Shown here: one piece after another, positions 28,925-53,375 of the stretch
Position numbering within the stretch: position 1 is the first letter of the stretch
Layout of the letters: every line of letters begins with the position of its first letter
Source of the DNA: Lophium mytilinum
Taxonomy: Eukaryota; Ascomycota; Dothideomycetes; Mytilinidiales; Mytilinidiaceae
DNA: 64,000 nucleotides
Assembly: GCA_010093605.1 (NCBI GenBank)
Contig: MU004186.1
Coordinates: 699,765 to 763,764, forward strand
Direction: 5' to 3'
Notes under the pieces: generated by a model
Databases searched by the model: none
What the model was told of the DNA's origin: nothing
Seen by the model: only the letters and a program-made list of their open reading frames with translations
Translations under genes and position numbers: made by a program

Positions 28925-30469
28925 ATGAAATTTATACCCGTGTTGTCTCTGACTGCTGTGGCTGTCGCTCAGCAGGCAGCGTATGGGCAGTGTGGTGGTA
29001 ATGGTTGGTCCGGGGGAACTACTTGTGTTTCAGGATATTACTGCAGATTTTCCAGCGACTATTACTCCCAATGCGTTCCTGGTACTGGTGGGCATCCATT
29101 TCTTCAAAAAACTTTAGTGTTGCGTCTGACCTTTCAAGCGTCTGGTGGAGCAACGACGCTCTCGACTGTTGTAGGAGTTGGTACAAGCACCACGCCACCC
29201 ACCACTGGAGCAACAGGCACGATCTCTAAAGCTAGCGGGACGAAATTCACTATTGATGGAGTGACGAAATGTTAGTGGCATTGTACCGTCTTTAGAAGAC
29301 TACCTGTTGACTGGAGTAGATTTCGCTGGTACCAATGCTTACTGGATCGGCTTCCTTACGAACAATGCGGATGTCGACACCGTAATGAGCCATTTGCAAT
29401 CGTCCGGACTAAAGATCCTTCGCGTATGGGGTTTCAACGATGTCACTTCTGTTCCTGGCTCTGGAACGGTGTACTACCAGTCATTCTCCGGCTCCTCTGC
29501 TACGATCAACACGGGCGCAGATGGTCTTCAGCGACTTGACTACGTAGTTCAAAGCGCCGCTGCCCATGGCATCAAGCTCATCATAAATTTTGTTAACAAC
29601 TGGACCGACTATGGCGGTATGGCAGCATATATGAAAGCTTGCGGTGGGTCCACCAACAAGGATTGGTATCAAAGTTCTTCGTGCCAGGCCTTATACAAGA
29701 ATTACATCAAGGCAGTCGTGAGCAGATACTCGAGCTCTCCGGCTATTTTTGCCTGGGAGTTAGCAAATGAGCCGAGATGTAATGGCTGCGATACGTAAGT
29801 GCCGCATCTTCAGAACTATCCCCATCATTTTCCTTCGAGTACGCCATAGCTGATTCGCGGAACAGATCGATTTTAACAAACTGGATCAAAACAACTAGCG
29901 CTTACATCAAGAGCTTAGATTCGACACACATGGTGACTGTTGGTGACGAGGGCTTCGGTGTATCCGGAGGCGATGGAAGCTACCCTTATAGTGAGTCAAT
30001 GCAATATCCTAACGTCACTCCTCGCTAACTTGCTGAAGCATCTGGCGAGGGTTGGGACTGGGATACCAATCTCGCAATCTCTACCATCGATTTCGGCACA
30101 TTCCATCTCTATCCATCAAGCTGTGAGTAACTTCGTCTAGCTTCGGAGGATCATGTGATACTAATATCAATCTTAGGGGGCACTTCTAACGATTGGGGTA
30201 ACGGCTGGATTCAAGCACACGCTGCAGCATGCGTCAAAGCGAACAAACCTTGTCTTCTCGAGGAATACGGTGTCTCTTCTGACCATTGCACCATCGAAGG
30301 TGCTTGGCAAAAGACCTCCTTGTCCACCACTGGCATGGCAGCAGATCTTTTCTGGGATGAGGGTGACCAACTTACCTCGGGCAAGACTTCCGACGATGGG
30401 AACACCATTTTCTACGGTACCAGCGATTGGACTTGTTTAGTTACGAACCATGTAAGCGCTATCGGATAG
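28925..30469 (+). CDS. Secreted endo-1,4-beta-mannanase, CBM1 + GH5_7
   Basis: Mannan endo-1,4-beta-mannosidase, cutting plant mannans, predicted 423 residues. Exons 28925-29087, 29139-29270, 29320-29794, 29866-29990, 30039-30122 and 30177-30469. A signal peptide ([15 protein letters not shown]) precedes a fungal CBM1 ([16 protein letters not shown], then YYC and QCVPG; four Cys, aromatic binding residues). A short Thr/Gly linker follows. The GH5_7 core starts [26 protein letters not shown]. The acid/base is Glu249 in ELANEPRC and the nucleophile lies in the EE pair 355-356 of LLEEYG. The C-terminus FWDEGDQL...TIFYGTSDW is typical. N-terminal CBM1 placement contrasts with the C-terminal CBM1 of Trichoderma Man5A. 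The LPMO gene follows 760 bases downstream on the same strand. Confidence 0.95.
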
Positions 30470-31230
30470 GGCAGTCTGTTTTCTGGTGGGCTTCCAACCT
30501 TGCAATTTTCTGCACGATGTGGAGAAATGAGAAAGAATTGCGGACTATGAGCCATTCGAAATGATCCACTTGTGCACTTGCTCAATAATAATCTTGAACG
30601 ATGTTGCCAGGCTACAGAATTGTAGCTCACCTTACAGTGTACTATAAACATCTCAGACGGAGTCCGACTTTCCTCATCGTCCCTTTCGAACTTCCGAGGG
30701 TCTACCTAAATAAGCTTGCTACGCCATTCTCCTACGTATCATGGCGGTTCCCCGCCTGTTCGTCTCTTTCAGGCAAATCTCCCCTGCACCGGTAGCGGCT
30801 CCGCCGGGATATCATGAAGCCAGGCATCAGCAGGGGCTCTAATATATACCCACCAATAGGACCAACCAGCCGGACTCCAGATTGTATATTAATATAACCC
30901 GGCCGTCTTCCCCTCTGTTACAGCTCGCGTTGTTCTTCACGTCACCTGCCAAACCATGTTTGAATCAGCTCGGCATTGACCATCGTCCAGACGTGTCTAC
31001 TCGCTAGCTTTGGTTGGCGAATCTCAGCTCCTATTATTAATATATCTGAAAATAAGAACACAGAGCACTGTCCAGCATGACTCTCTCCAGGAAAGTTCTA
31101 CGGCAGATAGAGTATCTCCATGACGCAGAAAGAAAAGACCCGCAGAGTCTCCAACCCCATATAAAGCTCCAATGCCTTCATCTAAGCCATGGACACATTT
31201 TCAATTCCACATCGTCTCTGCCAGCTCACG
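30470..31230. promoter_or_regulatory. Mannanase 3' region and LPMO promoter
   Basis: No gene is supported. TATAAA at 31160-31165, 66-71 bases upstream of the LPMO start codon, is a good TATA box, with CCAAT at 31169-31173. Additional TA-rich stretches lie near 30840 and 30885. Confidence 0.5.
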
Positions 31231-32124
31231 ATGAAGTGTCTCCTTATCCTCCTAGCCACGGCCTCATCCATCACTGCCCACTCCACATGGCAAGAACTTT
31301 GGGTCGGCAGCACCGACGAAGCCGGCACCTGTGTCCGCCTCCCGCCCAACAACAACCCCGTGACAGATGTCACATCCAACGACCTCCGCTGCAATGTCGG
31401 CGGCACGACAGGCGTCTCTGGCGTCTGTGAAGTTGCCGGTAAGCCCACGACAGACCTCTCACTCCGCCAATACCAACATCTCTAACCAACCTCCCCAGCC
31501 GGCAACACCCTCACCGTAGAAATGCACGCCCAACCCGGCGACCGCTCCTGCGCCAACCCCGCCATCGGCGGCAACCACTACGGACCTGTAATGGTCTACA
31601 TGTCCGCCGTCGCCGACGCCACCACCGCCGACGGCTCATCGTCCTGGTTCAAGGTTGCGCAGGACTCGTACGCCGGCACGACAGAGAGCTGGGGGACGGA
31701 GATCCTGAACGCGAACTGCGGGAAGCGCACGTTTACGGTGCCAAAGACGCTGGCGAGTGGGAACTATCTGGTTAGGGCGGAGGCAATTGCGCTGCATGCG
31801 GCGAGCAGTTCCGGCGGGGCGCAGTTTTATATGAGCTGTTATCAGAGTAAGTGGTTTCATGATGTGTGTGATGGAAGGGGAAGGGGGGTTTGAGGATGTG
31901 GGCTAATGGGCGCGTGTTAGTTAATGTTACTGGCGGTGGTTCAGCGAAGCCTACGGGGGTGCTGTTTCCGGGGGCGTATAAGGCGAGGTGAGTGATGCTT
32001 TCTGATATGAATGGAGAAGATAAGTAGGAATGCTGATGTGTACAGCGATCCTGGAATTCTCATCAATATTTATCAAACACCGCTCACATACACGGCTCCG
32101 GGACCTGCTGTGTGGACAGGTTAG
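31231..32124 (+). CDS. Lytic polysaccharide monooxygenase, AA9 family
   Basis: Copper enzyme that oxidatively cleaves cellulose or related glucans, predicted 233 residues. Exons 31231-31438, 31499-31846, 31921-31987 and 32046-32124. The ATG at 31231 (MKCLLILLATASSITA) gives a signal peptide whose cleavage after Ala would expose His as residue 1 (HSTWQELWVG), as the histidine brace needs; an ATG 14 codons upstream would spoil this less neatly. The second brace His is in IGGNHYGPVMVYM, and the axial Tyr in QFYMSCYQ. LVRAEAIALHAASSSGGAQ is the usual AA9 core. The last exon ends LTYTAPGPAVWTG with no linker, CBM1 or GPI tail. Cleavage regioselectivity cannot be judged from sequence. Confidence 0.95.
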
Positions 32125-32431: not shown

Positions 32432-35088
32432 TCAAGTTTTGCTGCCAGTGTTAGGTCGGCGGCGTTTTGGGGTCGGAGTGCTGGGCTCTCCGTTCTTAGC
32501 CTTCGCAGATCGCTTCTTAGAAGCGTTTGACCTAGCTGACGGTATATCTGGCTCCTGGCCTTCAGGCTCCTGGTCTTTTGGCTGTGCAATGATACCCTTC
32601 CCACCCAGTGAATTGCTGGCATGGTACCAGTCATGGTTTCCAGGAAATCGCCCGCCCCAATCCTGTGTTCGGATATCAAGCTTGCCTCCCTGAGCTGAGT
32701 GTATGTTAGTTGAAGTTACGCAAAGGTTCAGATTGGCTCAAACTTACTCCATTTCGGTGGACCAGCACTGGGAGCAGATATGTTAGGATCAGCTACCGGC
32801 CAGGCACCCTTTGGAGGCAGTCCGTAGAAAGCGCCGCTCTCAGCCCTCGATATCATCGGGAAATATGCTTTCGTTGGATCGAGATCTTTGAAGAGAGCAG
32901 ATCGATCGCGCAGGGAACGTGCCTGTTTGATGCAGCCACATGTATCTGTACTTAGTTAGTTATCCTGCCGTGATAGAACTTGCTGACAAATTAGAGAGAA
33001 GGTTTCCAAAAGTCGCAATTATGAATAACATTACCTTCTTTGAACAGGAGGCTCGCCCGCGTGTGTGCGCATGTTTCTGCTCGATGGAGAACGACTTGCA
33101 ACATCTTCTGCGTGCGATCAGCCACCGCATTCCGCTCCGCACAGGTCCATGTCACGAGCAACTCGCCGTCTTTGCTAGTTCTCGATACCTCCACTGCCCG
33201 GGGCATCTGTGAGATCCGGATCGAGACGATACTTCCAAGACATGCTTTTAGCTCGCCCAAAGAGACATCGCCTATGTCTCGAGCCTCGAACACGTCCATC
33301 ACTTTGTGACAGAGAGACGCAACGGCGTGGTCGCACAGAAAGAGGCCTGCAGCTTTCCCCTTGAGAAGGCCTTCCATCTCCTCCTTTCCAAAATCGCACA
33401 TGTTTTGTTCATGTGCTCCTTCATAGGTCAGCCACTTGTCGTCGATCTTCAATTCTTTGCTTGATCGCGTATAGACAGCATCAATCCTTAGATTCTCGGT
33501 ATGGACAAAGCTGATGCCCATATCTGCGGTGACAGGGTGGGATGCAAGGCAAGCTTTGAGACACCTCGATATATGCTCGAAGAAGCAAGTCGACGGCAAC
33601 ACAGTCTTCTTCGCTTGAAGAAACAGATGATGACGCTCGCGTTCCGGCGTACGGCAAAGGCTGTACTTGGTGAACATGTCCCAAAGTTGTTTTGAGAGCA
33701 GGACCGGTTCGCGCTTTAGGCATTCGCGAATAATATGGGCATCCTGCTCACGTTAGTAAGAAATTTTGAAATAGATACATAAACTTACATGTGTTCCTCC
33801 GCTTGAGAAATAGTAGAATGGACGAAGATTGTCTCCATTTCCGTGATTACTCCCAATCAGATATGCCCAGATCTTCTTAACGGCAGACTCTGGGACGAAT
33901 TGGTCGGCCTCACTAACGTCTGCAGAGGATTGCAGTTCTTCTCGCAACATGCGGGTGTACTTTGCGACAAGAGAAGTCTCAGAGGAGTCGTTGTCGGTGC
34001 TCAATGCCTCTCCCCAAATTCCAGCCAGTTTGCGGGCTTCATCTCTGGCATTGGCCAGGTTGGCTCTATCACGGCCTGTTGTACCGTTTAGGAAGTTGTA
34101 CCCAAACCGAAACTTCTTTCCGCTGGCACTCGGATTCAAAAGCAAGAGACCTTTCAGGTATGTCTTATTTTCGAATTTCGGATCCAGTATGAGATCTCCA
34201 TGGGAGGTCCGGATCTTCTCCGAGGGCGGACTCACGTCAATGGTGACCGTCAGCCAGTCTCTGAACGCTTGCAGAGAAACTTTGACACTGTTTCGTTTTT
34301 CTCCACTCGAAGTTCTGCCGATGCGACTAGCACCAATAGTGACTGCTACGTCCTCCCAAATGTGGCTTTTGAGTTCTCGTGGCTGTCCTTTACTGATGCG
34401 CTCTTTCTCCGCCGACTTTTCTCGTCTGATGGTAATGTCCTTGGCCCTCCTGAGCTGACAGTGAAGGGTTTTATCCCGAGCACTGAATAGGAAAGTCCAC
34501 ATGTACTTTGAGGCTCCGAGTTGAACGGCATGATTTAGAGGGGATCTCTTCAAGACCAACGCCGCGATTTTCATTCCTTCGCCAAACTGACCAGCCTGGT
34601 TGTTGTCCGTTGCTTTTGTGGTTCCGCCCAAGCCAAGGTGTTGAAGTTGAAGGGAGGCTTTGAAATTGACCAACTTCAAAACACCGACCTCATCTTTGTC
34701 CCATCTGAACCTGATATAGCCCATCAACATGTTGTCACTAGGATGACGAGCTTCGATGACAATGGCGCGGCTAGTTTCCTTGTAGGTTGTCTTGAAATCC
34801 CGAACATCATGGACTATATCACTGAGGAACTTTTTGACGATCCCATCTCGCCTTTCTCTTGTTAGCCATGCGCAAGATGTTAGACGAAGAGAGCTCTTAC
34901 CAATTTTGATAGAACTCACGAAACGCTTCTTTGCCTCCCCAGTTTGGTTGGTACGTGGTCTTGATATTGAGCGCTTTCGTCGTGCTCTGCCCCACTCCTT
35001 CGAGATCGTCTTCCCCAGATTCTTCTCCGCCGGAGTGCTCGTACTGTAAGTCTTCATCCACCGCGCCGACGCCCTCGGAATCCGACAT
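32432..35088 (-). CDS. GHKL-ATPase-like protein, paralogue A
   Basis: Predicted 806-residue protein of unknown function. Exons in coding order 35088-34901, 34851-33789, 33743-33035, 32945-32748 and 32694-32432. An acidic N-terminus leads to GKEAFREFYQNWRDGI, whose Glu58, Asn62 and Asp65 fit the GHKL N-box (ExxxNxxD, as in Hsp90/MORC/GyrB). LGLGGTTKA and GQFGEGMKIAAL (residues ~136-160) fit the ATP-lid and G2 box. The usual DxGxG of the G1 box is replaced by VNFKASL. A transducer-like region (IWEDVAVTIG, YLKGLLLLNPS, FRFGYNFLNG) follows. The C-terminal part has TCGCIKQARSL, FPMISRAESGAFYGLPP, WGGRFPGNHDW and a basic tail (TPKRRRPN) like a nuclear signal. The splice choices are supported by the parallel structure of the neighbouring paralogue. 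Catalytic activity is unproven. Confidence 0.85.
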
Positions 35089-36156
35089 TGCGAGGGGCGT
35101 GTTGAGTTGTCGCAGGGAAAGTATAGCGTTGTTGTTCTTGTTGAAGAAGAGAAGAAGGCTAAAGCGAAGGTAAGAGAAGAAGCGGGTGGCACGAGCATAA
35201 AAGTGAAGTGAAAAGCAGCGGCAAGTGAAGATTGAAAGGCGGTGAGACTTCGATTGGACTAAAGGTCTAAATGAGAGAGGTACCGACTTAGCGAGACATG
35301 TTGAGACTTTCGCAAGGCATCCATTCGTTGGATACTAGCGACAAGACTTCAGCTAAGTGCCGCTCTTGGTGGCCTGCACATGCGTGCAAAGGACATACAA
35401 ACTTCGCCACTTCTAGGGTCGAGATTAGCGCTATTGTGAGTGAGGTAGACAAGATGACAGCTCTTATAAGATAGTACCTACCACGCAAAATACTTTCTGT
35501 ACCAAGATAGAAGCACTAACCTCTGCTTTGATGAGAAAATCTGTCTGAAAGTCATACCTGCCAGTCTCAAATCCAACACAGCTCTGTTATGGTTACACTC
35601 GGCGCCGAAGGCTGTGCTCCGAACTATGCCTCATCACTCTGGTGATACTCCATGAATTGACTAGTCACTTCACATTGCTTCTCTTCTTCCTTCGTAGTAT
35701 CTCCTCAAAGTCCTAAGCACTTCTGTGGGCGGACGCGAGTGTTCTAATCGATCATGATTCGCAAGATGACGAGGCCCTTGGAGCACAAGCAGAACGCTCA
35801 CGCTGACTATGTTCTACTCGTATTTGAGTCGAATGAGAAATGGAAGATTGAGATGATTTCTTGTTAAGCTATGCTCAGCACCATCCATGGTCTTCGGTGG
35901 CGTCCACTTACTATGCATCCTAACACCAAGGGGAGATGCTACATACCAAAATTACCCTAACAGCAAGTCGTGGCTCAAAGACCTCTAAACAACCTCCTCA
36001 AAAGAAATCACTCAAAGGTGTGAATCGAGGAAAGCGAAAGATCCACTATCGTGATATGCGCATCATATTACTCAATCCAATTACAACCTGACACCATGTG
36101 CTATCACAATGAATCCATCCCCATCACACAACTTTCAAAATCATCCCGAAAATGGA
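35089..36156. other. Spacer between the two GHKL-like paralogues
   Basis: About 1.07 kb holding the promoter of paralogue A and the 3' end of paralogue B. No coding region is supported; short frames show no similarity to the flanking genes. Confidence 0.5.
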
Positions 36157-39100
36157 CTACCTGCCGAATCTTGGCAATTGGCGGAAGCGCTTAGTCGGCG
36201 AATACCCTCCGTCCTCAGTCGCCCCATCATGGCTGGATACGCTCTCACAGTAAGCGCGCTTGCTGTGGGGAGAAGGCGTACAAGCAGACTGGGTAACGCT
36301 AGGTCTAATTCGAATTGGGTTGTTCTCGCTGGTCCCTAGACCCGAATTCTGAACTGGACCTTGATCTCGAAGCTGTGGCCTTTCTCGAGGCCTCGGCGTC
36401 GAGCCGTAAAGACTATCATGACTTGCAGCCCTGTCTTCATGTGCACTGCCATTGACACCTACAGCAGCAAGGCGGTTCGCTATGGTAGGTTTGGCTATCA
36501 CGGTAGCTGGAGCTTTGGTGGTGGTGAAGGTGGTAGGCTTTGAAGAGCGGGATTCTCGAAGCTCCTTCAGTTTTTCATTGCGAGCTGAAAGGGTGAGCAT
36601 GCAGTGCTCCATCTCTTGCAAGGCAATAGCGGCGGATTTGGCGGTGACCTGGTAGTCACTATCGGCGGGTGTCTCAACTTCAGTGACTGGCGCCTGGGAA
36701 CGTGCAAAAAAGCCTCTTTGGCCGTTGCCGTTAATCGCGCGAAACCAGTCGTGGTCACCAGGGAAGGCGCCCCAGCCAAGGTCCTTGCGATCAATTTGTG
36801 TGTCAAACAAAATTCCTAGGTGATGTTAGTGGCATTACAAGTGGCCAAGATGACTTTGCATAAAACAATGGAACTACAAACTTACTCCATGTTGCATCAG
36901 TGTTCATAAATTTGAAAGCTTCTTGTGCTTTCGTATTGTAGTCTCTGAGCTGACTCAGGACGTCATCGATATCCGAAACATCTTTATCGGGAGTTACTCT
37001 AACTGGAGGAGAGGGCGGAGTACGTTCAAGTGTTGCTGACTCCGGGGACGAGTGTCTAGTTGACGCACGACTTGAAATATGGGGACCCTCGATTGGAGTT
37101 TGCGAGCCTGGAGAGAAAGGATCGGACATGTCGACATCAGAGTCGGATGATGAATCTCCGGATGATATATCGACGATGTCATAATCTAAAGGCTCAACCT
37201 TCAGACCTGCAGCTTCTGTTTCTTCAGCATTGAGGGGCCGTTTACCCGGGGGAGGAACGGCGTAAAATGAGCCATGCTCGGTCGTACAGATCATGGGGAA
37301 GTAGAAATGATCTGCGCTAAGATTTTCGAACACCGCTTTCCGACATGTAGGAGGGATTATCTGCCTGGGACAGTCGCAGGGCTCTATGCACTATTAGAAC
37401 TGGGCGCATTTTCTCCTTGGAGACAAATCATGCATGATGACACAGGGAAGAGACTCAAGGTTCGCTTACCTTCAGATCCCCTATACAAAGATATCTTCCG
37501 CTTATCTCTACATGTATCCGTACGATGAAGAATGACTAATTTCTGCTGATTGGAATGACCTGGTATCATAGCTAGCGGTCCAGACGATTTCCATTTGACC
37601 ATCAAAGCTTGAGGTTTGACACTCAGCGTCACTGCGCGAACCATCTGGGGGATCCGAATGGAACTAATGCTTTCTAGACGAATCTTGAGTTCCTTGACGG
37701 AAGTGCTGTGAGTGTCTTCGGCGGACAGCTCGTCTATCATAATCCTGAACAGGGAGGCAGCTGCATGGTCGCAGAGGAAGAGGTCGTGGAGAAGATACAA
37801 CTTGGTGTCATCTTGGTTCAAAACGCACGATGTATGCTCATGGGCTCCATCGAATGTTAGCCATTTGTCATTTATTTTCCACTCTTTTCCTTCTCTCTCT
37901 TTCCCTGCTCTCTCTTTTCCTTCTCTCAAGTAGATGACGTCGAGGCCTAGATCTCCCGTGTTTACAAATTTAAACTTCATGTCGCTAGTAGCTGGGTCGG
38001 AGTGGAGGCAAGCTGCAAGAGTTTGCAGCATGTGCTTTGCGAAACAAGTGGCGTTCGAAAGATCGGAGAGGGCCGCTTTGTGGAATCTGTGGTAGCGCTC
38101 CTCATCTGGCGTGCGGCACAGTTTGTGATGGCGGAACATATCCCACAGACGCTTTCCAACGTTGACCGGCTCGAGCTTCAGGCAATCTCGAATTATGCTA
38201 GCCGCCTATACACGAGTCAGCTGAGCAAAGTCCACGGTCAATCATTTTACAGCACTAACGTCGGAGCTGCTATCAGCTTGATTGTAGTAGAACGGAGCTT
38301 TTCCATTTCGATAATTGACTGGACTGAGCTTGTATGTCCACACTTTCTTGACTGTGGACCGTGAGGCATAGCTGTCAGCGTCGTGAACATCCGCATAGCG
38401 TTTGCATCCGCTAAACGACTCTTCTAAAAGCTGCGTGTATTTCGCAACAAGCGAAGTTTCAGTGAGGATGTCTCCGTCAGCGCTCAGCGCCTCTCCCCAG
38501 ATTCCTGCAATTATACTAGCCTCTTCGTGTGCAAACGTCATGCTGGCTCTGTCCAGACTCGTCTCACCGTTCCGGAAGTTGTACCCGTATCTCAAGGGCT
38601 TCCCGCTAACGCTTGCGTTAGGTAGTAGTAACCCCTTTAAGTAGGCCTTGTTCACGTATTCGAGAATCAGGTCGCCTTCCCGGGTTCGTATAATGTTTGT
38701 CGGGGGCGCTATGTCAATCGAAACTTCGAGCCAATTTTTGAAGTCGGAAAGATGGATCTTATCACTCTTCTTCTTCCTCTTATCCTGCTCGTCTTGCGTT
38801 CTTTCGCTGCGACCGCTCCCAATCAGCACGGCGACATCTTCCCAGATATTGGCCTTCAATCCTCGAGGCTTGCCTTCGTTCTTGCGATCCTCCTCTTTTG
38901 TTTTCAGTCTTCGTAAAGTGTCTTCTTTCTCTTTTGTTAGACTGCATGTTAATTCTACTTTGGAATTGAACTTAAAATTCCACTTGAAGCATGAACTGAG
39001 TATCCGAACAGTGTGGTTTTGGGGATATCTTCGCATTGCCAGAGCCGCAATCTTCATACCCTCACCATATTGACCGCTCTGTGTTCCGTCGTTATGGGCT

Positions 39101-39574
39101 TTTGTCGTCCCGCCTGTCTTCAAATGGTCCTTATGGAGAGAAGCGTTGAAGTTCACAATCTGCAGGGTGCCAAGTTCGTTCTTGTCCCACTTGAACTGGA
39201 TATATCCCATAAGGCATTTCGTGTGAGGGTTTATGGCCCTGATGATGATTTGAGTCTTCAGCGTCTGCTTCTCTGTACGGAAGTCAGACAGGTTAATGTT
39301 GAAACTACGCACGATGCCATCACGCCTGTCGATTGTTATGGTCTGATCTCCATGTGCGGTAAGTGACTGACCAGTTCTGATAGAACTCTCGGAAAGCTTC
39401 TTTGCCCTTCCAGGATTTCCGGTAGTCGTTTCCGTAGTTTAGACCCTTGGACGTCGATGTCCTGGAAACATCAAACCCATTTTCATCCACCAGAGCGAAG
39501 TCCTCGTTGTCGGAGGCAACTGAAGACTCAATGCCATCATAGAGTTCATCGAAAGCATCCGGGTTCTCTGCCAT
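36157..39574 (-). CDS. GHKL-ATPase-like protein, paralogue B
   Basis: Predicted 1053-residue protein. Exons in coding order 39574-39372, 39325-38260, 38205-37470, 37383-36886 and 36815-36157. Four introns fall at the same places in the protein as in paralogue A. N-box GKEAFREFYQNWRDGI (Glu63, Asn67, Asp70), GGTTKA and GQYGEGMKIAAL are kept; the G1 position reads VNFNASL. The transducer-like region has IWEDVAVLIG, YLKGLLLPNAS and LRYGYNFRNG. It shares with A the segments IRDCLKLEPV, LWDMF, CRTPDEERYHRF, DDKWLT-like NDKWLTFDGAHEH, LFLCDHAAASL and, near the C-terminus, WGAFPGDHDWFRAI. It differs by a longer acidic Ser/Asp stretch (SSGDSSSDSDVDMSDPFSP) and a Ser/Pro-rich basic tail (SPTKRFRQLPRFGR). 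Function is unknown; ATP binding is inferred. Confidence 0.85.
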
Positions 39575-40039
39575 ATGTACGAACCGTCCGTAGACAGTGA
39601 TTTAGATACTATATAGGAATACGACCGGCTTAGACAAACACTGGAAAAATCTTGTCAGCCGCTATGAAGGACTTAAAATACGTGATTCCCTCACCAATAC
39701 ACTACTGTCCTTGGAAGAAGTCCAGATCAAGGTCAATCAACGCGATATGTAGTGACAGTGCGACGCAGCCTTCAACAGGCGTACAACCTCTCCTCGGCGG
39801 GCCACAAGTATGAAGTTGAAAGGAGCAAGTTCTTCGGTTGAGGATCGTGATACAGCAGCCTTCACGAGTGGGTTCGGGCTCTGATGAAGCGACAGGTGAG
39901 TTTGAAATTAGGAGGGATTGGGCAGCAGGCAGAAGGGAAGTGAGATGACGGCTGAGGGGCATGACGGGCTACCTGCAGCTACCTACATACAATCACTCTG
40001 GTTGCTGTGCCGCATTAGGCGCTGTGACCTCTAAGCGCC

Positions 40040-40063
40040 CCCCTAACCCTAACCCTAACCCCT
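40040..40063. repeat. Interstitial telomere-type repeat, (CCCTAA)3
   Basis: CCCTAACCCTAACCCTAACC, flanked by extra C residues, equals three TTAGGG units on the minus strand. TTAGGG is the usual telomere repeat of filamentous ascomycetes. The block is internal, with ordinary genes on both sides. Confidence 0.85.
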
Positions 40064-40076
40064 CCGTTGGGCACTT

Positions 40077-40150
40077 CGCGTACAGTTGAGAATTTGGCGT
40101 ACAGTTGAGCATTTGGCTTACAGTTGAGCATTTGCGTACAGTTGGGCAAA
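40077..40150. repeat. Minisatellite, four copies of a ~19-bp unit
   Basis: The unit GGCGTACAGTTGAGCATTT recurs four times with small changes (GAGAATTT, GGCTTACAG, GTTGGGCA). It starts only about 15 bases after the telomere-like block. Such sub-repeats can mark the end of a DNA transposon, and the following sequence is ordinary A/C-rich DNA, but no inverted partner copy was seen within a few kilobases. Confidence 0.75.
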
Positions 40151-41135
40151 CGGTTAGAACGCGAAGTCGCGAAACCCCGTGACTACCACGTTATTGAATC
40201 AAATGGCCGCCCCATCCAATCAAATAGCCGCGTCATTCTGCTGTCTTATTCATCATGATCTCTCGAGCTTCTGCGTACTCCTCAAGATGGTTGAGAGCGC
40301 CATACCACGCCGCCCTCTGACACAATCTCTAGTCATGACAGAACCTATTCCGGCGGAAGCAAACATTCATGCAGCCACTTGTTTCATAGTAGATATCACC
40401 CGTCCGTCATTGGCTTCGACTGACGCAGGAGGCTGCGCGGATGCTGTAACTTTCCGCATCCCTGTCTGTCCGAGTCTCAGCCTTGGGACGTGCTGGCTGA
40501 GGGAGGTGATCATTGTTGCGCACACTGGCTTGGGCAATGACTGAATCTAAAGCAACTTTCGAATACGAACGATGTCGAGCTTGCAAATCGGGAATTATTC
40601 CGTCGTAGTTGGAGGAAGGAGACCTAGAGATGAAGTGTGAAGTTGGGACAGGACGTGCGCTGAACCCAAGCCCGTGACTTTATTGGGGGTTCGAAAACAC
40701 GAAGTGGGACAATCTATCCTAGACTTATCTTGGATCTCAGGAAACCTTCTCTCCATGTTCGTACTACTTTCATTAGGCATTCTCACTTCCTCTAGCATGT
40801 CAAAGTCACATGAGCCACGATATCTCACATTGGCGTCATCGTAGGTGTAGGCCATCTGACGTCCATAAAGCATCGGCAAAGACTAGCGAAATGATTTAAA
40901 GGTTTGCCATTCTACGCATTCTTCCACAGACCTTTTATAAAGGGTATATATAAAATCGTTTCAAGCAACAACGCACAAGAAAGAGAACCCACCTCCCAAT
41001 CTGCCCAAAAACCAAACTTGCAGCTCCATGAACCAGCCACGAGACCATATCAAAACCCCATATCAACCCCCAAACTCCTATCGCCGGGTATAATATCACC
41101 CTGCCCTCTCACACCACATCCCCGCCAGCCCCACA

Positions 41136-43300
41136 TCACCCCCCATAAGACCCCAGATTCCCCGTCACCGCCCTTGTCGCCAGAATCGTAATCCTCTTAT
41201 TATACAACTTCATCATATGGCACACCGGATCCCCAAACACAACCTGGCGCAGTGTCTGATCGTTAACCGTAACCGCCTCCACATCTTCCTGATCGCTGCT
41301 CCCTGGCCTCACCCTAAGCACCACAATCCGGCCAGCCGTAGAAAGAAAAGCCTCCGGGATCGTCCACGAGGGCGCAGGACCCGAGAAGGAGTTCGCCTTA
41401 CCGCCGAGCTGCAGCTGTGGCCTCTGTTTCTCCTTCCGCTTCGCGATCTTGCCCAGTCCGTTCGGCGTTAGTGCGATAGTGCTGACGTTCGCCATCTTCA
41501 GGTTGCCGATCTGGCTGACGCTGTTGCCGATACTGCAATTTGAGCCTGGCGCCGGGGTGGCGTAGAGCTTTAGTAGACTGCCGACTACATTTCTGTCCGC
41601 GCGGCACACAGGATCGCCCTCGTTGACGAAGCCGAAGAAGAGGCTCTTGGCGTGCCTCTTGCCCGGCGGCTTTTGGAGCGGGAGGAGGCTGACGGGTGGC
41701 GCGCCGAAGGTGATGCAGTGGACGCGTTTGAAGAAGCCGGTTAGGTAGGTGAGTTCAGAAGTGACGGTTTCGGAGAGCATGTGGGCGTATAGTAGCGCAG
41801 CAACGGCGCCTCCAGCAGAGTGGCCAGTGATGAGCAGAGAGGAGGCACTGCGTGAGGGATTCTCGGAGAGGAGGGTGCGGAGGCGGGCGGCTACGGGGGT
41901 AATCATTTGGCGGGCGACGTGGAGGAAGCCGCTGTGGCATTTGTTCCCGGGATCGTCCTGAAACTCCTTTTTAGCTTTGAAGTGGTGTTTGAGTGTATGA
42001 GGATAGGCAGCAAAGATTTGAAAATTGATAGTGTGCAAAGGCATCTTCAGACCCTTCTCGTATGTTTGATCGACAAAGTGATAAAAAAAATGAAAGTACA
42101 AAGCAGAATGCGAAGGTCTGAGAATCTAAAGCTTACCAAGAATCCAGTAGCCATCGAAGGCTCAGGTCGAAAATTGACAGCCCAATCCATGAACGTCTGG
42201 CTCCCTCTGATAGCGAAAACAACAGTGTTCATGTCATCGATAGGCAGGCTCTTCAGTACCATGGCTTTCGTGCCCTGCCGCCAATTGGCTTCGACGTGTG
42301 CCTCACGCTCCGATCCCGTCGGCCGTGAGTAAACATTCTCCGAGAACTGAGCCGCTAGACACAGGAGTGGGTAAGTTGGCATGTACCTAGAAACGCTTAG
42401 TAGCCATTACTGACAAAGATATGGAAATGTGCTTACACTTTGAGAGGTGGAAGATGCGGCGGCAACCTCGAGTTGGAATACAGCCAGACTTTAGAAAAGT
42501 AATTCGACCCAGAAACCTGACCCCGATTCGCAGTAGCACTTGGGTAGACATTGTGGATACCTCGAGTTTGCTCCGAAGGGAACGATGAGTCTGTAGGATA
42601 CTGCTCGTACACGACTACTTATCCATCAGCATACAGTTCCCATAGCGACTATCATGTGACAAGTCCACTTACTCAGCTCCTTCTCATCCCCACTAAAGCC
42701 CTCCCCATCAATCGACGTAATCACAGCATCGAACTTCGACGAAATAAGATCACACAGCGCGGCCCCTTGGTTCAGGTAGACAGTGCTCTTCGAGTGCAGA
42801 TTCCCTTGTAAATGACTAACAGAATTGGACGCCGCGTGCAGATTTCCTTGCAAATGACTAACAGAACTGGACGCCGCGTGCACGGGATGCTTGACGACGT
42901 TCAGCGACGATTTCCACTTGCTGTCCTTGTGCGGCAGCGTTGCTAGATGAGCTGTAGACTGATGGCTCGTCAGATACGGCCCGCTGTTCATCTGCGATGT
43001 CACCGGTCGCACGGGTAAGGAAGGCTGAGAAGGCTGCTGTTGCTGATACGGCTGCGTGTACGGCCTCGGACTCGCACTCCCTGACCAGCCCGAATATGGA
43101 GGCGTCGGTGCTGTTGCTTGATTCAAGACAAAAGCAGGAGTAGGTGGCATGAACACCGTGGATTGAGTTGACTGCACTGTTGCGCTTGATTGTGAAGGTT
43201 GGTACCCATTTGGCATTAGCATTGGCGCAGGCTGCGCAGGCTTTTTGGACCCATGCTTCTTCCGTCCCTTGAACTCTTTGCCTAGGAAATGGATCGGCAT
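41136..43300 (-). CDS. Class 3 lipase (alpha/beta hydrolase)
   Basis: Predicted 626-residue lipase. Exons in coding order 43300-42673, 42617-42437, 42386-42137 and 41957-41136; the third intron is long (179 bases). Residues 1-200 are low in complexity, rich in Pro, Gln and Ser, and contain a duplicated word (ASSSVSHLQGNLH / ASNSVSHLQGNLH). The lipase_3 domain has the oxyanion/strand motif TVVFAIRGSQTFMDW and the nucleophile elbow GHSAGG (Ser ~400). The acid is likely in NEGDPVCRAD and the base His in VCHMMKLYN near the C-terminus. There is no signal peptide, so an intracellular lipid hydrolase is likely, as for cytosolic plant-type or fungal lipase_3 proteins. Substrate is not predictable. 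Confidence 0.92.
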
Positions 43301-51991: not shown

Positions 51992-53375
51992 TAGGCTGGC
52001 ATTGACTAGTTACATATGGCTAGAGAAACAACCAAGACACTGCTTACTAAAACAAGTCCCACCGAGGTGCAGGCAATCCCACGATTCTGGCTGAGAAATA
52101 ATGAGCATTGAAGCTGTGAATGCAGCTGCTACTAATTTAGAGTAATAGGAGTAATAGGAGTAATAGGAGTAATAGGAGTAAAGGGAGTAATAGGAGTAAA
52201 GGGAGTAGAGTAAGTTAAGGGAGTAGGATAAGTAAAGGGAGTAAAGTAAGTAAAGGGAGTAAAGTAAGTAAAGGGAGTAAAGTAAGTAAAGTAAGTAATA
52301 GGAGTAAAGGGAGTAAAGTAAGTAAAGCAAGTAATAGGAGTAATAGGAGTAAAAGAAGTAAAGGGAGTAAAGAGAGTAAAGCAAGTAATGCGAGTAAGAC
52401 AAGTATTAGGAGTATTGGGAGTATTGGGAGTATTGGGAGTATTGGGAGTATTGGGAGTATTGGGAGTAAAGCGGGTTTTGGGAGTAATGGTGGTAGCATG
52501 CTACCTTTCGTCTCGAGCTCCGTGCTCAAGTGATTTAGCAATGCGATTACGGATTTGCAAAAGGCCTACCTAACACAAGAGTTTACGTATGGGGATGAGG
52601 ATTAAGAGATACCTACCTACACATCAAAAGCATATAGAACTGCAGAGATTTCCTTAGGGTCGATGAAGCTTCGAAAGGTACAAGTATCCATCAATATTCA
52701 AACTGGAGTGTATTGCTAAAAAGGCTGCGTGATAGACTGGGTAGAGTTCCAGGCTGCCTTGCGGGTGTGTAACCCTGCACGATGTACTGTACGTATGTAT
52801 GTACAACCTCAGTAACCTCGTCCAAAATGTCAGAAATTCGTGAGCGTATACGAAGTCCTCAATTGGTCTAGCCAGTAAGCCTCGATGGATGAAAGGAGAA
52901 TCTAAGAATCTCATATGCCGGTTCATGGTCCCATCCTCGTAGCTAGCCATCTTCATTGGTGAACTGACGTCGTGCCTCGCTCCAACACCATCACCCCGCA
53001 TCTTGGGTTCCACCCCCGCGGTCTCCAACCCCACAAAGGCGACCCTGCTGCCTATCAGAGTGCTAGCCATGTTGCCAATTCAAGTAGTCTTCCATCCTAG
53101 TGCTGGCGTACGGAATGCTTCCGTCTTCATGCAGCGCCAAGTTACGATTCTTGTACGCTGAGTCGTGAGAAGGACTGGCTCAGAGCGCGTCGCCGACGCG
53201 GGAGGTACTGCGCAGCTGGTGAGGGGGAGCTTCCTTAAACTTTAGGGTTAAAAGGCAACAAGTCCCCAATGCGCGACTTGTGTTTTCCTCTCCTCATTCT
53301 CAATTATTGTCAACTCCAAAGCTCAAATTTCGACTTCTTCATCTGTCTACCTTTCCTGATCATTCGCATCTCAAA
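51992..53375. other. Intergenic with minisatellite
   Basis: About 1.4 kb. The 9-bp minisatellite is listed separately. A minus-strand frame at 53070-52654 (138 codons) has no recognised domain and was not accepted. The last part holds the alcohol dehydrogenase promoter. Confidence 0.55.
52140..52492. repeat. 9-bp minisatellite (GAGTAATAG / GAGTAAAGG / GAGTATTGG)
   Basis: Roughly 35-40 copies of a 9-base unit built on AGTAATAGG. Variants come in blocks: AGTAATAGG first, AGTAAAGGG with AGTAAGTAA-like shorter units in the middle, and six perfect AGTATTGGG copies at 52411-52464. Homogeneous blocks suggest local slippage. It starts about 150 bases after the reductase stop codon. The leucine- and tyrosine-rich frames over it are artefacts. 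Confidence 0.95.

Follow-up and report, generated by a model that had tools for sequence, protein, structure and literature searches.

We analysed a 64,000-nucleotide (nt) window of the genome of the ascomycete Lophium mytilinum (assembly GCA_010093605.1, contig MU004186.1, positions 699,765 to 763,764), and focus here on two neighbouring minus-strand genes, A and B, that profile searches place almost certainly in the type of protein family represented by phrog_6077, a phage family listed in PHROGs with 'unknown function'. The gene models are predicted splicing from the genomic sequence, and all coordinates refer to the window.

35088-32432, minus strand: gene A, 806 amino acids, five exons (35088-34901, 34851-33789, 33743-33035, 32945-32748, 32694-32432), stop at 32432.
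39574-36157, minus strand: gene B, 1053 amino acids, five exons (39574-39372, 39325-38260, 38205-37470, 37383-36886, 36815-36157).

All eight introns have GT-AG borders and lengths of 45 to 89 nt, their phases are 2, 0, 1 and 1 in each gene, their places match between the genes, and the spliced frames contain no internal stop. An earlier note on this window had given the coordinates, the strand, the lengths of 806 and 1053 residues, the five-exon layout and a set of motifs, and splicing and translation showed every one of these to be correct.

The two proteins are 47% identical (323 of 694 alignment columns; BLASTP expect value, E, 0.0). Identity is 43% for residues 471-700 of A, and beyond residue 700 the tail is much looser, at 28%. 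In the core (A 38-470), differences between the genes at codon positions 1, 2 and 3 amount to 0.358, 0.302 and 0.649, and in A 471-700 to 0.396, 0.369 and 0.622. Silent sites are near saturation: among conserved codons, the two genes disagree at 93 of 134 four-fold sites. Because codon positions 1 and 2 are less changed than position 3 and four-fold sites mostly differ, we see A and B as an old tandem duplicate, each copy held by purifying selection, and the codon-position differences exclude chance. The diversifying use suggested earlier for the pair is not shown by these data, as synonymous divergence is saturated and the readable codon positions point to constraint. When A, B and phrog_6077 were used as queries against the 43.2 Mb genome (E 10), the A and B loci were the only ones matched.

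Both genes were matched by phrog_6077 (2/2, best E 3.6e-15, in A), and a search of the whole genome with this family gave the A and B loci only, at E 1.1e-10 and 3.2e-7. The comparison was then extended to phage and plasmid relatives. From IMG/VR, 79 viral loci were taken, 67 of which are in the alignment named A4, with 12 excluded as near-duplicates, truncated or unclear in their start. Loci L013 to L103 gave 2051 open reading frames (ORFs) of 80 amino acids or more, among which an iterated family profile marked 91; 88 of these are distinct, and the 84 shorter than 500 amino acids were used for a profile and for column counts. With A and B removed, this profile of 84 relatives matched A at E 1.8e-27 and B at E 1.4e-20, compared to 0.059 to 1.1 for the four other PF13589 (GHKL) loci in the same genome and E 3 for the best of 1,000 shuffles. 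The underlying alignment was built together with A and B and both were then stripped; phrog_6077 itself is independent. Conversely, a profile made from just spliced A and B recovered 87 of the 91 family ORFs (all except L091, L100, L101 and L103) and none of the 1960 other ORFs at E 1e-3. Alignment of spliced A/B to the 84 relatives using hhalign gave a probability of 99.4 and E 1.4e-21 over 331 columns, covering positions 15-361 of the 409 in the template. The fungal regions so aligned are as follows.

33594..34977, minus strand: gene A, residues 38-467, homologous to almost the entire phage protein (hhalign), with a GHKL head and a transducer-like part, interrupted by introns 1 and 2.
38053..39448, minus strand: gene B, residues 43-474, homologous to almost the entire phage protein (hhalign).

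Members of phrog_6077 include proteins of about 370 amino acids from Pectobacterium phage DU_PP_IV, Erwinia phage pEp_SNUABM_01 and Pseudomonas phage QdP_Psa3. A and B are collinear with almost the full phage protein, carry the same motif set, and have the Asp of the G1 box replaced, as in most relatives. They differ from it in that four introns split the gene, the head carries insertions, and basic stretches and a long conserved C-terminal half are present; their second exons are 19 and 21% identical to phage relative L030. Taken together, these comparisons suggest a phage-known GHKL-fold family in a eukaryote, where it has introns and a C-terminal half of its own, and so suggest that a protein of viral or bacterial type acts in a fungal cell. 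An unnamed fungal gene pair would thereby be tied to a phage family without function, with a shared fold and motif set for both sides.

More direct searches returned little. Neither A nor B had a match in Pfam, NCBIfam or PADLOC at E 10, and sequence searches of the PDB gave no family, the seven rows of one search being ribosomal uS19/S15 proteins at E 1.5 or worse. Patterns from the second exons of the pair gave 46 matches in viral and 22 in prokaryotic collections, none confirmed as a relative, and the exact pattern GQ[FY]GEGMKIAA had 0 matches in either; a looser pattern found 40 viral stretches, but 29 lay on contigs that the collected set included. By tblastn, residues 1-423 of B matched 0 plasmids and 4 of 50,697 phage records (E 0.09 to 0.1), and A matched nine of the same records, of which one reached E 6e-6 and the other eight lay between 0.4 and 0.9. 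The link to phages rests on profiles rather than on tblastn, because these tblastn and pattern searches were weak or empty. We note here an annotation gap, in that the family is present in 111 of 50,697 phage records (tblastn of phage member P0001, E 0.01 or better), yet no Pfam model reaches the fungal members. The remark in the earlier note that no role has been assigned to this fungal type holds, as phrog_6077 is without function, and the matches listed from open-licence PMC literature included nothing on a fungal member or on phrog_6077. Fungal sequence databases may hold relatives of A and B, filed as hypothetical proteins.

Motifs typical of the GHKL head could be placed in both fungal proteins as follows.

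34839..34935, minus strand: gene A N-box GKEAFREFYQNWRDGI (E58, N62, D65), with its Trp codon split by intron 1 (34900-34852).
39313..39406, minus strand: gene B N-box GKEAFREFYQNWRDGI, split at the same place by intron 1 (39371-39326).
34557..34592, minus strand: gene A G2 box GQFGEGMKIAAL, residues 150-161; G150, G153 and G155 occur in 84/84 relatives and K157 in 83/84.
39040..39075, minus strand: gene B G2 box GQYGEGMKIAAL, residues 152-163.

The N-box columns hold Glu in 82, Asn in 82 and Asp in 83 of the 84 relatives. A lid element, GxTTK, is kept in A and B, its Lys being present in 82/84 relatives, and Arg 165 (84/84) is likewise kept in both. Overall, E58, N62, D65, G138, K142, G150, G153, E154, G155, K157 and R165 are all found in A and B, each in 81 to 84 of the 84 relatives. 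Further downstream, after the YxF strand, the first Asp-Arg of an LDRDR motif is also kept in both proteins if an ungapped alignment is assumed.

The fold was assessed on L030, a complete phage relative of 370 amino acids. An AlphaFold model made from a 69-row alignment, the two fungal exon 2 sequences included, reached a predicted local distance difference test (pLDDT) score of 91.2. Searched against the PDB with Foldseek, the model gave 151 matches at E 0.001 or better (top E 3.4e-9), and the 50 listed are all Hsp90, TRAP1 or GRP94 entries by title. Template modelling scores (TM-scores) by query length were 0.36 to 0.48 for Hsp90-class entries, with a root-mean-square deviation of 9 or more; because the TM-scores are low and the deviations high, the match is to be read as a shared two-domain plan and not as a close superposition. 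In this model, the phage relative has a Bergerat-type head and, after it, a transducer-like part, an arrangement like that of the N-terminal and middle domains of Hsp90. We infer a Bergerat fold for A and B from their homology to this relative. Among the longer plasmid relatives, three of six (L096, L098 and L099) passed the cut-offs of the Pfam models HATPase_c_3 or HATPase_c, L097 and L100 fell just short, and L101 was shorter still; T4 RIIA itself also scored below cut-off.

These structural matches bear on one alternative, namely that A and B are cytoplasmic chaperone-like or signalling ATPases in the manner of Hsp90 or Sacsin, each serving different clients. In its favour, besides the Hsp90-class titles of all 50 PDB matches listed, is a weak match to Sacsin in two phage relatives, L014 and L015 (E 0.089 and 0.29, below cut-off). 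However, the PDB contains very many Hsp90 entries among its two-domain GHKL structures, and such a ranking does not have to mirror function. Sequence agreement is also lacking, as A and B match neither Pfam HSP90 nor Hsp90 in the PDB and have no Hsp90 C-terminal domain by Pfam, and membership of Hsp90 itself was dropped for these reasons. The DNA or RNA metabolism genes near phage members and the basic C-terminal tail of A, both described below, likewise speak against a chaperone-like role, which we regard as rather unlikely.

In addition to the phage records given above, P0001 matched 9 of 72,556 plasmid records (E 0.1), and one plasmid carrying a family member is archaeal (Halorussus). Two of 14 control genomes, Thermus composti and Deinobacterium chartae, were matched by phrog_6077. 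Among 60 phage records listed, two are annotated as RIIA lysis inhibitor, and a further four carry the label histidine kinase or histidine kinase-like ATPase, the rest being mostly hypothetical or unannotated. Five phage stretches were viewed, and in four of them a DNA or RNA replication or metabolism gene lies in the flanks of the family member.

The tree was built without L037, L069 and L088, all truncated by a contig edge, and without identical copies; from each of L096 to L101 a single head was used. With support of 99/96, the six plasmid rows L096-L101 and two viral rows split from the rest, and the remaining side comprises the fungal pair, the other phage or viral rows and one plasmid row (L095). 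The tree program warned of long branches meeting on the plasmid side, i.e. L096-L101 with the two viral rows. The fungal branch is itself very long, at 3.25 changes per column, and its position among the phage rows is without support. We make no claim of a transfer from phage to fungus, as the fungal branch is long and only the split from the L096-L101 side is supported.

Some plasmid relatives show further architectures. Two of them carry two HATPase stretches, and thus two GHKL heads per chain: L096 (1976-5290, Alkaliphilus plasmid, 1104 amino acids) and L099 (2411-5287, Aneurinibacillus plasmid, 958 amino acids). The Salinibacter L100 and Streptomyces L098 proteins combine a GHKL head with a zincin-like part; they belong to the same wider family by profile, and differ from the fungal pair in their canonical G1 (DYGRG and DEGPG), their C-terminal HExxH and their place on the other side of the tree. 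On Salinibacter ruber plasmid pSR56, the L100 gene (3956-5398; GHKL plus HELAH) lies between type I restriction S and R genes, which makes it a candidate accessory component of this restriction system. A gene for an SprT-type metalloprotease follows the type I R gene on the same plasmid.

The second halves of A and B extend beyond the part shared with phages.

32432..33593, minus strand: gene A C-terminal half, residues 468-806, conserved with B to about residue 700 and ending in a basic tail.
36157..38052, minus strand: gene B C-terminal half, residues 475-1053, with a longer tail than that of A in the A/B alignment.

No relative of this half outside the A/B pair was present in the collections searched. 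A C-terminal query (A 331-760 with B 333-890) gave nothing significant among the 2051 phage and plasmid ORFs (best E 0.063), the third exons of the pair gave 169 pattern matches on viral contigs with none confirmed, and hhalign against four cellular relatives returned a probability of 0.3. We also considered a decayed zincin, setting IDDKWL ... FLCDHAVASL beside IVIHRPVL ... LLHELAHP of L100, and set this aside as it was without statistical support; a viral scan with L100 found no relative. The tail of A contains PKRRR at residues 795-799, a candidate nuclear import signal. Separately, His and Cys positions of the form LHR..TC ... C.C are conserved between residues 637-658 of A (33086-33035 with 32945-32932) and residues 650-673 of B (37527-37470 with 37383-37370), and these could possibly be a small metal site.

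In GHKL proteins, binding of ATP shuts a lid and makes the heads dimerise with each other; a basic residue comes from the downstream part, and the target is held by the C-terminal parts. The reading we favour, and consider somewhat probable as a whole, is that A and B are a phage-type GHKL-fold tandem pair acting as an ATP-gated clamp on chromatin or nucleic acid, perhaps in the nucleus. On binding of ATP in the head of A or B, the lid would close and two heads would join (A-A, B-B or A-B), the C-terminal halves and tails would select what the clamp holds, and the clamp would restrain or handle foreign or repetitive DNA in the nucleus. A clamp-type, ATP-dependent action is the likelier element of this proposal and has a good chance of being right; it is favoured because the N-box and G2 elements are intact, and the changed G1 is the main doubt. 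A nuclear nucleic-acid or chromatin role is favoured because A has PKRRR, phage members lie near DNA/RNA metabolism genes, and a distant plasmid relative sits in a type I restriction operon. We nevertheless hold the nuclear DNA role of the clamp only tentatively, as possible and not probable.

Several observations weigh against this clamp model. The G1 box DxGxG is lost, with NFKAS in A and NFNAS in B, and because its Asp is Asn in both, ATP binding is presumptive. At the G1 Asp column, the 84 relatives have Asn in 42 cases, Ser in 34, Asp in 4, Thr in 3 and a gap in 1. The second Asp-Arg of LDRDR is lost in A and B in the ungapped alignment, and the gaps placed by the aligner differ between the two. 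Phage relatives L013, L014, L015 and L030 have no match to the Pfam HATPase models and L054 is below cut-off. Fungal exon 2 folded alone gave an uninformative pLDDT of 32. As regards the nuclear part, the end of B is without PKRRR and has only KRFR, and the KRKKK of B at 250 lies inside the head. The restriction context of L100 transfers weakly to A and B, because that protein has a canonical G1 and a zincin-like tail, is on the other tree side from the fungal pair, and was missed by the fungal profile.

An altered G1 is, from the alignment, something that the fungal pair has in common with the side of the tree made up mostly of phages. Since DxGxG is missing, A and B are better described as members of the fold superfamily by descent than as canonical GHKL ATPases. 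The reading of the pair as GHKL-ATPase-like in the earlier note thus stands as to descent, on the basis of phrog_6077, the relatives' profile and the fold of the phage relative, and falls short at the missing G1. The structural check that it proposed was likewise answered in part: the phage relative L030 gave a Bergerat fold, and of the fungal protein itself only exon 2 was folded.

The state of G1 would also fit a pseudo-ATPase, in which A and B would use the retained fold as a scaffold that binds protein or ligand, ATP hydrolysis having been lost with the G1 Asp and glycines. The replacement of DxGxG by NFKAS and NFNAS, the presence of Asp in just 4/84 relatives at that column, and the failure of Pfam ATPase models to reach A and B at E 10 all agree with this. 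It is less easily reconciled with the N-box Glu, Asn and Asp, the lid Lys and the G2 glycines, which are near-invariant in the 84 relatives and kept in A and B at 47% identity; a nucleotide-free pocket is hard to square with residues so rarely changed. Asn or Ser can also contact adenine. We judge the pseudo-ATPase improbable, to about the same degree as the chaperone-like role, and continue to prefer an ATP-gated clamp.

T4 RIIA is a known phage protein with which the family was compared. When the L030 model was searched against viral models, the first seven rows had no name or characterisation, and RIIA or its synonyms accounted for 17 of the 50 listed. The N-box REL..N..D is also present in T4 RIIA, which differs from the fungal pair in keeping DFGPG at G1. 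Orthology to RIIA was rejected, as hhalign of the family against T4 RIIA gave a probability of 25.9 and T4 RIIA scored E 0.24 against the 84-relative profile. PMC7824862 portrays RIIA as a poorly understood counter-defence factor in which a GHKL domain is joined to a variable C-terminus, and PMC11879866 reports that RexAB is countered by RIIA/RIIB of five phages. A and B might on this basis be a RIIA-related counter-defence or self/non-self module, one that was domesticated to act against mobile elements or that serves fungal incompatibility or drive. RIIA being the commonest named viral fold neighbour would suit such a module, as would the action of RIIA/RIIB on RexAB (PMC11879866) and the fact that A and B are tandem and diverged. 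However, the similarity to T4 RIIA in sequence is not significant, and the readable codon positions show constraint and not rapid change. We therefore think this module distinctly less probable than either the scaffold or the chaperone-like role.

A second parallel is offered by the MORC proteins. PMC2292703 describes MORC and paraMORC proteins as a GHKL head joined to an S5-type transducer downstream and, in some members, to a further C-terminal module; it places prokaryotic MORC-type GHKLs in restriction systems and reports MORC as absent from fungi. A and B share the plan of a GHKL head with a transducer-like part downstream, and the extra C-terminal module of some MORC-type members is a further likeness. 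They differ in lacking Morc6_S5 or any other Pfam match at E 10 (Pfam misses the GHKL head too) and in the loss of G1. The fungal genome had no Morc6_S5, as was also the case for the control genomes. With no such match to build on, we set MORC membership aside. The combined context, with the MORC and RIIA parallels, suggests by analogy a possible nuclear, DNA-related or conflict-related role for A and B. If the ATP-gated clamp does act on nuclear DNA, it would stand beside MORC as another bacterial-conflict-type GHKL ATPase taken into eukaryotic chromatin biology, in organisms that, according to PMC2292703, have lost MORC. A stronger version, in which the phage-type clamp is the MORC-like nuclear protein of fungi and compacts or silences foreign and repetitive DNA as an A/B heterodimer, seems to us very unlikely.

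The earlier suggestion of accessory DNA next to repeats is not supported by the surroundings of the pair. The stretches on either side of B (35100-36150 and 39600-41100) are each present once in the genome, by a repeat search that omits simple repeats and very common words. Between 32000 and 41000 we see no family of direct repeats 25 nt or longer, one imperfect inverted pair and three short tandem arrays of 37, 46 and 83 bp. By Pfam, the genes close to A and B include those for AA9 and GH5 enzymes and for a class 3 lipase, and more distant genes in the window match PRP38, RMND1/Sif2, SNARE, kinase and CAP59-type families. Exons of a GH5 cellulase and an AA9 polysaccharide monooxygenase lie adjacent to one another at 29265-31890, adjoining the 3' end of gene A. 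Upstream of gene B, about 470 bp from its start, are three telomere-like CCCTAA units (40041-40058), followed by a 19-bp tandem array of 4.4 copies (40066-40148); the units and array together (40041-40148) are possibly the scar of a repaired break or an old insertion. At 42794-42882, a 42-bp unit is repeated 2.1 times with 93% matches, in a stretch partly open in two frames. Finally, a 350-bp array of G-rich repeats of 9, 18 and 27 bp is found at 52140-52490, in a kilobase with a GC skew of 0.28.

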